Shown here piece after piece: positions 33,498 to 35,543 of a stretch of DNA of 35,543 nucleotides. The DNA is from Myxococcaceae bacterium (GTDB lineage Bacteria; Myxococcota; Myxococcia; Myxococcales; Myxococcaceae): NCBI GenBank assembly GCA_022842905.1, contig JALHOS010000027.1, forward strand, positions 1 through 35,543, written 5' to 3'. The stretch's first letter is position 1; each line of letters opens with the position of its first letter. Under the pieces are notes generated by a model. That model was not told the origin of the DNA and ran no database searches. It saw only the letters and a program-made list of their open reading frames with translations. The position numbers were made by a program, and so were the translations under genes.

Positions 33498-33519
33498 GGT
33501 GTGTCCTCCTGACACGAAG

Positions 33520-33534
33520 TGGGTTCAACGTACG
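33520..33534 (-). promoter_or_regulatory. Shared 15-bp upstream motif, copy 2
   Basis: Minus strand CGTACGTTGAACCCA, 22 bp before the start codon of the basic protein gene. See copy 1 at 33178-33192. Confidence 0.4.
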
Positions 33535-33647
33535 TGCCCACCGCATCCCCCTCAGACGCTAGGCGGTTGGCCTCAGGCGCGACCGCAGTTCGTGCGGAAG
33601 GGTGGCGCCGACGCAATCCGTGCGGCTTTGGCTACAGTGTGGCGCCC

Positions 33648-34022
33648 ATGACGCAGAGCCGCCCCATTCGCTTCGTTCGCGCGCTGGTCCTCGCGTCGGG
33701 CGTGTCGTCGCTCGGCGTGTCCTGCGGTCGCGCGGAGCTCGTCTCTCCGGACCCTGACGCAGGGCAAGCGCGCGCGGACGCCGGCCGAGGGACCGGCGAT
33801 GGAGGCCTCTTCGACGCTGGGCTCGCCGACGCGGGCGCCCACGACGCTGGCGGCCAGGACGCGGGGAACGCCGACGCTGGCGCGATCGATGCCGGCCCGT
33901 TCAACTGCGCGAGCTGCACCTGCTTCGTGCCCGATTCAGGCCGACCCGACTGCGTGGCGCTGGGGCACTTCGAATGCTGCCCGGCGATCGGCCCGCTCAA
34001 CCCGCCGAACCTGCCCGCGTGA
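33648..34022 (+). CDS. Asp-Ala-Gly-rich, Cys-rich lipoprotein, paralogue A
   Basis: 124-residue secreted protein. The N-terminus RPIRFVRALVLASGVSSLGVSC is a signal sequence with a weak lipobox (GVSC). The middle is a low-complexity DAG repeat (DAGLADAGAHDAGGQDAGNADAG), typical of myxobacterial exported linkers. The C-terminal module is Cys-rich: CASCTCFVPDSGRPDCVALGHFECCPAIGPLNPPNLPA. The start and end are clearly paralogous to the next gene, whose GTG overlaps this stop as GTGA. Function not recognised; the Cys cluster may bind metal or form disulfides. Confidence 0.75.
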   Translation: MTQSRPIRFVRALVLASGVSSLGVSCGRAELVSPDPDAGQARADAGRGTGDGGLFDAGLADAGAHDAGGQDAGNADAGAIDAGPFNCASCTCFVPDSGRPDCVALGHFECCPAIGPLNPPNLPA

Positions 34023-34321
34023 AGCGGCCGGCCCACGGCGCGCGCTTCGTGCGGGCCCTGCTCCTCTCCTCCGGCCTGACGCTCAGCGGAGCAAGCTGCG
34101 GTCGCGCCGAGCCGTACGAGCCTGGCAGCAGGCCGCCGACTCCCCTGCCCGACGCCTCGACCATCACCGACGCCGGGTCGACCTGCCGAAGCCTGTCGCG
34201 CTGTCCGCACTGTCAGTGCGCCATGGACACCGCCTGCGCCCTGCCGCAGTGCGCGCCGCCCGAGTCCTTCCGCTGCTGCCCCATCGAAGGGCCGCTGCCG
34301 CCGCCGGACTTGCCGGCATGA
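34019..34321 (+). CDS. Cys-rich lipoprotein, paralogue B
   Basis: 100-residue paralogue of the preceding protein. Shared parts are the signal region (RFVRALLLSSGLTLSGASCGRAE versus RFVRALVLASGVSSLGVSCGRAE) and the tail (CCPIEGPLPPPDLPA versus CCPAIGPLNPPNLPA). The lipobox SGASC is better than in paralogue A. The DAG linker is short, and the module CRSLSRCPHCQCAMDTACALPQCAPPESFRCC holds eight cysteines and one His. It starts with GTG overlapping the previous stop, and its stop overlaps the ATG of the diiron gene (ATGA), so the three are translationally coupled. Confidence 0.75.
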   Translation: MKRPAHGARFVRALLLSSGLTLSGASCGRAEPYEPGSRPPTPLPDASTITDAGSTCRSLSRCPHCQCAMDTACALPQCAPPESFRCCPIEGPLPPPDLPA

Positions 34322-35151
34322 ACTTCCCCGCGCCGCTCCCGGCCTCGAGCGCCCTGGCTCAGGAGTTCGCCAAGCTCGACGCAGCGCTCGGGCGGACGCC
34401 CCGGCCCGACGCGGTCTTCGACCGGAGCGCGTGCCCGCCGCACGTCCTGTCCCGACTCGTCACGCAGTGGCGCCAGCGCCAGGGCCTCGAGCACCGCTCG
34501 TCCATGGTGTTCACCCAGCTCGGCGTGCAGCTCTTCGAAGCGAACGCCGCGCCCGAGTTGACCGCGGTGATGCTGCGCATGGCCCAGGACGAGCTGCGCC
34601 ACGCGCGGCGGTGTGAAGTGGTGCGCGCGGCGCTGGGTGACTCGAGCCCGCTGGCCGCCGACCCCACCGTGCTCCCGCTCGCCCGGCACGAAGGCACCAG
34701 CCCGCGCGAGCGCGCGCTGCGCAACGTGCTCTACACGACCTGCTGCTCGGAGCTGGTGGCCTGCGCGCGCTTCGTCGCCACGCTCGACGTGTTGAAGGAC
34801 GCCTTCCTCGCCGAGCACGTGCGCGCGCTGTTGGCCGACGAGGTGCTGCACGGGCAGTTCGGCTTCCACTACCTGGTCCTCGAGGCCGACTGGCTCCGAG
34901 AATCACCCGCCGCCGTCGCTTCGACGAATCGCTTCCTCACCCACGCCTTTCACGTGCTCGAGCAGGAGCTGGGCATGCCCGGCGACTGGCCCGCGGTGGG
35001 CCCCGAAGAGCGCGCCTGGGGCCTCGAAGACGCCGAGACCGCGCGGGCCCTGTTCTTCGAGACCATCGAAGCGGCGGTGCTCCCAGGGCTCGACGCAGCC
35101 GGGCTCGACGCGACCGGCGCCTGGCGCCGCCGGGGCCACCTGCCTGGCTGA
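34318..35151 (+). CDS. Ferritin-like diiron-carboxylate protein
   Basis: 277-residue helical protein with the diiron ligand pattern of ferritin-like oxidases: E74 (LFEAN), E92-x2-H95 (AQDELRHAR), E145 (CCSELVACAR) and E175-x2-H178 (ADEVLHGQFG). Four to six helices are readable, without a signal peptide. Related proteins with such ExxH pairs hydroxylate or oxidise substrates, or are maturation factors. The start ATG overlaps the stop of lipoprotein B, and it ends 35 bp before the TetR gene, whose operator lies in between. A functional pairing with the two Cys-rich exported proteins is inferred from coupling only. Confidence 0.78.
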   Translation: MNFPAPLPASSALAQEFAKLDAALGRTPRPDAVFDRSACPPHVLSRLVTQWRQRQGLEHRSSMVFTQLGVQLFEANAAPELTAVMLRMAQDELRHARRCEVVRAALGDSSPLAADPTVLPLARHEGTSPRERALRNVLYTTCCSELVACARFVATLDVLKDAFLAEHVRALLADEVLHGQFGFHYLVLEADWLRESPAAVASTNRFLTHAFHVLEQELGMPGDWPAVGPEERAWGLEDAETARALFFETIEAAVLPGLDAAGLDATGAWRRRGHLPG

Positions 35152-35157
35152 CGGCGA

Positions 35158-35180
35158 AGAGACAGTGCGATACTGTCTCT
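35158..35180 (+). promoter_or_regulatory. Palindromic operator of the TetR-type regulator
   Basis: Perfect inverted repeat AGAGACAGT-gcgat-ACTGTCTCT with 9-bp arms and a 5-bp spacer. It ends 6 bases before the regulator's GTG start, the classic position for autoregulation by a TetR dimer. Confidence 0.75.
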
Positions 35181-35186
35181 CTCACT

Positions 35187-35543
35187 GTGTCTCAGACCCA
35201 CGATCGGATCGTCCAGGCGGCGCGGCGGCTGGCGCAGTCGCGGCTGCCGTTCTCCATGGACCAGGTCGCGCTCGGCGCCGGGGTGTCGCGGGCGAGCCTG
35301 TACCGCCACTTCCCTTCCCGCGACGCGCTGATCGCCCACCTGCGCGCGGCGGGCGTGTCCGCGGACGAGCTGCCCAAGGCGGTGCAGGAGCGGATCCTGG
35401 AGACCACCGGGCGAGTGCTGGCGCGGGAAGGGCTGGCGGGCCTGACGCTGGCGGCGATCGCCGCCGAGGCCGGCGTGTCGCTGGCGACGCTGCACCGACA
35501 CTTCACGGGGCGCGCCGGGCTGCTCCAGGCCTTCGCCGAGGCG
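35187..35543 (+). CDS. TetR-family regulator with two N-terminal HTH domains (3' truncated)
   Basis: 119 residues are visible up to the window edge; the stop lies beyond. The start is a GTG at 35187 (SQTHDRIVQAARRLAQ). A first TetR_N helix-turn-helix covers about 7-52: FSMDQVALGAGVSRASLYRHFPSRDALIAHL. A second complete TetR_N-like unit follows at about 68-117: ILETTGRVLAREGLAGLTLAAIAAEAGVSLATLHRHFTGRAGLLQAF. Two full HTH units in tandem are unusual, since TetR proteins normally have one. The palindrome directly upstream is the likely autoregulatory site. The ligand domain is outside the window. Confidence 0.85.
   Translation, partial: MSQTHDRIVQAARRLAQSRLPFSMDQVALGAGVSRASLYRHFPSRDALIAHLRAAGVSADELPKAVQERILETTGRVLAREGLAGLTLAAIAAEAGVSLATLHRHFTGRAGLLQAFAEA

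Follow-up and report, generated by a model that had tools for sequence, protein, structure and literature searches.

The window, a stretch of 35,543 bases that is the whole of contig G000:C27, ends in a gene for a TetR-family regulator with two consecutive HTH units. This tandem-HTH TetR protein is a real, conserved variant of the family and not a fusion artefact; in its relatives it is encoded in a conserved operon, and it is preceded by an operator that is conserved in both half-sites and spacing. Few bacterial switches have been studied as thoroughly as the TetR proteins, which also supply synthetic biology with a stock of parts and usually have a single HTH in each subunit. If the order HTH-HTH-ligand domain is indeed conserved together with a matching 37-bp operator, it would show how specificity can rise in the TetR family with no need of a second dimer.

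Two HTH units ahead of one C-terminal domain

The regulator frame is cut at residue 119, and the C-terminal domain is absent from the window because the window ends with its contig. The two complete TetR_N units that the preliminary description had placed within these 119 residues are borne out: PF00440 (TetR_N) matches two stretches of the protein (76.3 bits against a Pfam cut-off of 24, E 1.5e-21), and the AlphaFold2 model, built with 14 relatives aligned, consists of two complete three-helix HTH units (mean pLDDT 92.4) with helices at residues 3-17, 24-31 and 35-41 in HTH1, and 66-81, 88-95 and 99-105 in HTH2. All structures were modelled as single chains.

Table 1 Features of the regulator gene and of its upstream region in the window
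Feature	Position	Strand	Basis or remark
Tandem-HTH TetR-family regulator, GTG start	35187..35543	+	first 119 residues, open at contig end
HTH1, additional N-terminal unit, residues 3-41	35193..35309	+	AlphaFold2 model, TetR_N, conservation
HTH1 recognition helix, residues 35-41	35289-35309	+	
Short helix linking HTH1 towards HTH2, residues 45-54	35319..35348	+	AlphaFold2 model
HTH2, residues 66-105, equivalent to the usual TetR DNA-binding domain	35382..35501	+	TetR_N, model, fold of relative L078
HTH2 recognition helix, residues 99-105	35481-35501	+	
Perfect 9-5-9 palindrome of the preliminary description	35158..35180	.	left outer half-site plus additional TGTCTC
Conserved 37-bp predicted operator, TGAGAC-N25-GTCTCA, one mismatch	35158..35194	.	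covers start codon; conserved in relatives
Left outer half-site AGAGAC	35158..35163	.	
Right outer half-site GTCTCA	35189..35194	.	
Left inner half-site GTGCGA	35165..35170	.	
Right inner half-site TCTCAC	35180..35185	.	

Full-length relatives have HTH1, then HTH2, then one C-terminal TetR domain. One of them, L078, was modelled at full length (pLDDT 84.5, pTM 0.66); its C-terminal part is the all-helical ligand/dimer domain of the TetR fold, and residues 73-267 match MexL (Z 17.2, rmsd 3.2, 192 aligned); QacR chains are also found among the fold matches of HTH2 plus the C-terminal domain. Since this portion fits solved TetR proteins, HTH2 is the ordinary TetR DNA-binding domain and HTH1 an extra unit in front of it. 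The same fold match, by showing HTH2 to be canonical, rules out that it was the second unit which was added or has degenerated. The earlier suggestion that the second unit has turned into a dimer interface fits less well, HTH2 and the C-terminal region being the canonical TetR part and the extra HTH1 keeping its DNA-reading residues. None of the solved structures listed for the window model aligned both HTHs well, nothing being found at E <= 0.001, and where the fit is good it extends over one HTH (3qkx_B, 0.9 A over 54 columns). In the comparison by sequence, covering 60 of 277 solved chains, nearly all match from about profile position 60, i.e. from HTH2 onward.

A profile of the two-HTH region (A2), run on 195 Myxococcota genomes with E <= 1e-16, detected the tandem in 15 of them, the genome of the window counted. 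At the level of the order, the tandem proteins scored between E 4e-51 and 9e-25, and the next matches followed at about 1e-14, the best of these covering essentially one HTH. Surroundings were available for 14 relatives (L056-L069), of which 13 are 245-283 aa long; the remaining one, L069, has 222 aa and a shortened HTH1. Among the matches listed, further tandems belong to a Polyangia bacterium (L079), a Phycisphaerae bacterium (L080) and a 'proteobacterium' (L081), and at least nine tandem records (L082, L083, L085-L088, L090-L092) are assigned to Chloroflexi, to Dormibacterota or to an unassigned bacterium. Duplicates were counted once (L078 = L061, L084 = L065, L089 = L064), and L092, which is cut by a contig end, was used for operators and helices and left out of gene neighbourhoods and folding. 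The closest relative compared, L067, aligns with all 119 window residues with 55% identity and no gap, and the tandem is present in three single-contig genomes (G006, G085 and G088).

A conserved operator and the helices that may read it

The 9-5-9 perfect palindrome reported ahead of the gene stands, exact, at 35158-35180 (AGAGACAGT-GCGAT-ACTGTCTCT), and no second copy of it turns up in the window when as many as 3 mismatches are allowed. In the window as a whole, perfect 9-bp arms separated by 0-10 bases are not rare (2 observed; 4-11 in 5 shuffles), but such a palindrome in the 60 bases 5' of the start was met in 3 of 2000 shuffles of that stretch and in 2 of 2000 random 60-mers of the window; its occurrence at the regulator start is unlikely to be due to chance. 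A longer inverted repeat, 13-9-13 at 35158-35192 and 85% complementary, overlaps it. The palindrome had been called a perfect operator, which is true in part: the palindrome is real, but it is just a part of a conserved operator that reaches to 35194, over the start codon. The site in the window holds three GAGAC/GTCTC half-sites, including an additional middle TGTCTC that most relatives lack, and the exact sequence GAGAC-N25-GTCTCA occurs once in the 7.85-Mb genome.

Conservation of the operator was assessed in 18 upstream regions (the 14 Myxococcota loci L056-L069, the window, and L079-L081). TGAGAC-N-GTCTCA with a gap of 22-26 and at most one mismatch of 12 is found in 13 of these, versus 0.08 in dinucleotide shuffles, and without mismatch in five, versus 0. 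With one sequence per genus, the representatives being hand-picked and L066 and L069 omitted as members of genera already represented, the operator (at most one mismatch) is retained in 10/12 versus 0.035 in shuffles. The gaps of the matching operators are 24 (four regions), 25 (seven) and 26 (two), and gaps outside 24-26 occur in one region each, at 15 and 18; the centres of the outer half-sites are 30-32 bp apart, that is about three helical turns. Mismatches number two in L057 and L060 and three in L059; L069, with its shortened HTH1, retains a perfect outer site. In most regions it is the 3' arm that covers the start codon, and in L080, L056 and L058 this arm is found at other offsets with the same gap. 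A coding origin of the signal, as an artefact of ATG TCT C at the start, was considered and is ruled out, the spacing being kept at other start offsets in these three loci.

Between the arms lies an inner inverted repeat that is stronger than chance. Over 15 sites it scores 73, with 64 as the highest value among 500 shuffles, and over the 10 sites of the genus representatives 48, with 45 as the highest among 1000; these shuffles preserve base composition only. From locus to locus the outer half-sites stay fixed, whereas the inner ones vary and the inner repeats shift place. A consensus scan of the window found no sigma-70 promoter; by eye only, a TTGACA...TATAAT-like sequence can be seen in L080 and L056.

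The two recognition helices differ in a similar manner. Over seven positions in 18 proteins, the entropy of the HTH1 helix is 1.42 bits versus 7.00 bits for HTH2, where it should be considered that L079-L092 were found by the peptide pattern G[VC]SRATLYR, so that their helix conservation partly reflects selection. Of the DNA-facing parts of the protein the HTH1 recognition helix is conserved best, while that of HTH2 varies; HTH1 often has no aromatic residue after the recognition helix (YR-x-F), whereas HTH2 keeps it. L068 is the sole member with an altered HTH1 helix (SRPALYR), and its outer site is absent; L081 has the usual helix, yet its operator is absent too. A link between the HTH1 helix and the outer half-site is thus suggestive only, L068 agreeing with it and L081 disagreeing.

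As controls served 61 genes with G[VC]SRATLYR, mostly single-HTH, i.e. those of 65 loci (L093-L157) in which a rule could place a start. An exact GAGAC...GTCTC, mostly with a 15-bp gap, precedes 11 of them (counted as loci, not as orthologous groups), which supports the idea that the SRATLYR-type helix reads GAGAC. Actinobacterial-type TetR genes with the same helix motif (L104, L108, L111, L119, L122, L127, L129, L131, L134 and L147) carry upstream GAGAC-N14..15-GTCTC with GTCTT or a near match between; judged from these sites, GAGAC-N14..15-GTCTC is likely the operator of another TetR group.

In the Chloroflexi/Dormibacterota tandem group both HTHs carry an SR-type helix, and contiguous sites such as AGACGAGAC-GTCTCGTCT are found upstream, between presumed -35 and -10 elements; gap-0 repeats are present in 4/9 upstream regions of the group versus 0.03 in shuffles. 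These sites are a different arrangement of the same half-site, and the geometry is not uniform across the tandems.

The operon and its enzyme

In all 17 relatives of the type of the window (L056-L069 and L079-L081) the next gene encodes an enzyme resembling rifamycin phosphotransferase and PEP synthase, and the stop codon of the regulator overlaps the start codon of the enzyme in 13 of the 14 Myxococcota loci, L069 being the exception. According to Pfam (L057, L067 and L080), the enzyme comprises an ATP-grasp domain (PPDK_N) and a mobile phosphohistidine domain (PEP-utilizers) and has no C-terminal PEP domain. This is the layout of rifamycin phosphotransferases, and the enzymes of these three loci have it. 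The rifamycin phosphotransferase equivalog NF041857 (cut-off 999) is not reached by the enzymes of L057 (758.5 bits) and L068 (646.6 bits), nor is the PpsA equivalog TIGR01418 (cut-off 740; 401 and 349 bits, respectively), and the L057 enzyme passes NF004878, a subfamily model named PEP synthase. In L081 the match begins only at enzyme residue 247. In the L060 and L066 assemblies the enzyme frame is in two pieces, reflecting sequencing errors or decayed genes. In 9/17 loci a half-length ArsP-like permease of 168 aa follows (31.0 bits, just below the Pfam cut-off of 32.3).

In the genome of the window a C-terminal piece of such an enzyme lies at the end of contig C296, closest to the L067 enzyme (56%; 41%, 30% and 29% to the other three queries). 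We infer from this that C27 continues into C296, which would give this genome, too, the enzyme downstream of the regulator. The best explanation of the gene content is a detoxification-type operon with an ATP-dependent enzyme of the phosphotransferase type and, in about half of the loci, a small permease. That the palindrome belongs to a longer operator shared by the family, and the gene to a conserved operon of the detoxification type, are two points that go beyond the preliminary description. The tandem regulator also serves as a marker for a family of phosphotransferase-like enzymes that appear to be induced by a ligand, and the regulator studied here probably guards an enzyme of the antibiotic-modifying type.

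The records of the Chloroflexi/Dormibacterota tandem group contain no phosphotransferase-like enzyme. An ABC ATPase and an ABC-2 permease lie downstream in 5/8 neighbourhoods of this group, as judged by eye with a Pfam check on L087 only, and behind several of its tandem genes come an ABC-2 type exporter and a small protein with a pair of cysteines.

On the other side of the regulator, a 277-aa frame at 34318-35151 (+), the stop of which is 6 bases 5' of the operator, appears by eye to be ferritin-like or of the diiron type, with DELRH and DEVLH as its two ExxH motifs; Pfam gave no match for it above cut-off (Rubrerythrin E 0.26). Next to each other at 33519-34022 and 33974-34321 (+) are two small Cys-rich frames of the lipoprotein-like type, which are 35% identical to one another and have no match in Pfam.

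Proposed mechanism and relation to known systems

With somewhat more confidence than doubt, we propose that the protein is a doubled-HTH autorepressor of its own promoter and of the enzyme gene, whose dimer lines up four HTHs on one face of the DNA over about 37 bp and is released by a ligand. The dimer would form through the C-terminal domains, as in TetR proteins. Its two HTH2 units would lie near the operator centre, over the inner half-sites, and its two HTH1 units one major groove, i.e. one turn, further out, where they would read the conserved GAGAC half-sites. The spacing and the conservation suggest that the four HTHs occupy four consecutive major grooves (about 37 bp, one face, three turns); four consecutive grooves imply three turns between the outer sites, which matches the spacing observed. 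Because the operator spans the presumed promoter and either overlaps the start codon or adjoins it, binding would shut the operon, regulator and enzyme alike, and a small molecule bound in the C-terminal domain may release the repression, as is common in the family. The four-HTH dimer leaves the non-uniform inner spacing unexplained, the centres of the inner half-sites being 15 bp apart, not 10, in the window and about 10 bp apart in L056. The possibility raised earlier that one protein binds two half-sites in cis agrees with the operator of about 37 bp with its outer and inner half-sites, with the three turns between the outer centres and with the conserved HTH1 helix, the binding itself being a prediction. 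A wider version appears to us about as probable as its opposite: one dimer would read four half-sites over three turns, the outer pair fixed by HTH1 and the inner pair drifting with HTH2, and would have been recruited to at least two detoxification-type operons (phosphotransferase plus permease; ABC-2 exporter).

Two dimers might instead share the long operator in the manner of QacR, with one HTH used per subunit or with HTH1 and HTH2 interchangeable. Long operators with multiple half-sites are known from two-dimer TetR proteins, such as the QacR tetramer on 28 bp (PMC4482099), and both the three GAGAC/GTCTC half-sites of the window and the adjacent ones of the Chloroflexi/Dormibacterota group would suit such an arrangement. 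This reading, which we hold to be unlikely, leaves unexplained an HTH1 with a nearly invariant recognition helix as well as the three-turn spacing of the outer sites. More doubtful still is that HTH2 alone binds DNA and that HTH1 is an additional dimer or protein-protein interface, a reading that carries the earlier idea about the second unit over to the first. HTH2 with the C-terminal domain is already a complete TetR protein, HTH1 frequently lacks the aromatic residue that HTH2 keeps, and L069 has HTH1 in shortened form; against this reading stand the low entropy of the HTH1 recognition helix as compared with that of HTH2 and the number of half-sites in the operator, too large for two HTH2 units to occupy them all. 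Two independent HTHs joined by a linker could also bridge or loop DNA by binding separate sites, but the half-sites cluster at one place and the exact operator is single in the genome, which makes this very improbable. A frameshift or assembly error fusing two regulators, named in the preliminary description as the outcome that would overturn it, could be suspected in a draft genome of 667 contigs with the gene at a contig end, but is excluded for all practical purposes by the gap-free collinearity with L067 and by the same architecture in other genomes, including the single-contig ones.

The four-HTH dimer can be approached experimentally: the outer half-sites differ from the inner ones in how they vary, as does one recognition helix from the other, so that the contribution of each HTH is directly testable. 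If the bipartite reading is true, the tandem would let a repressor lengthen its operator and retune it by means of its own architecture, a device retained in several phyla.

In the literature searched, where part of the search terms were too strict or too loose, no TetR protein of the HTH-HTH-ligand-domain type was found, just double TFRs of the Mce3R type; this is weak evidence that the architecture is new to the literature. Mce3R of Mycobacterium tuberculosis (PDB 9b7y), described as a 'double TFR' in PMC11667970, consists of two whole TetR proteins fused into 406 aa and binds a non-palindromic 27-bp region. Mce3R resembles the present regulator in having two TetR HTH motifs per polypeptide and in being a local repressor, but it is ordered HTH-ligand domain-HTH-ligand domain, whereas HTH-HTH-one C-terminal domain is found here in proteins of mostly 245-283 aa, and its site is non-palindromic, in contrast to the palindromic predicted operator of about 37 bp. 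A double TFR has a ligand domain for each HTH (about 400 aa) and a non-palindromic operator; the relatives have 222-283 aa with adjacent HTHs, and an inverted repeat stands in 13 of the 18 upstream regions. As in other TetR systems, a predicted operator, the conserved inverted repeat, lies ahead of the regulator's own gene. An ordinary TetR dimer is described in PMC10663510. The single-HTH TetR repressors of the MexL and FadR type have the fold of HTH2 plus the C-terminal domain in common with the tandem proteins, but have one HTH per subunit and no counterpart of HTH1. The QacR tetramer, in which two dimers bind a 28-bp palindrome (PMC4482099), comes close to the proposed complex in that four HTHs would be set on one long palindromic operator; in QacR these belong to four subunits with one HTH each, whereas here a single dimer would carry all four.
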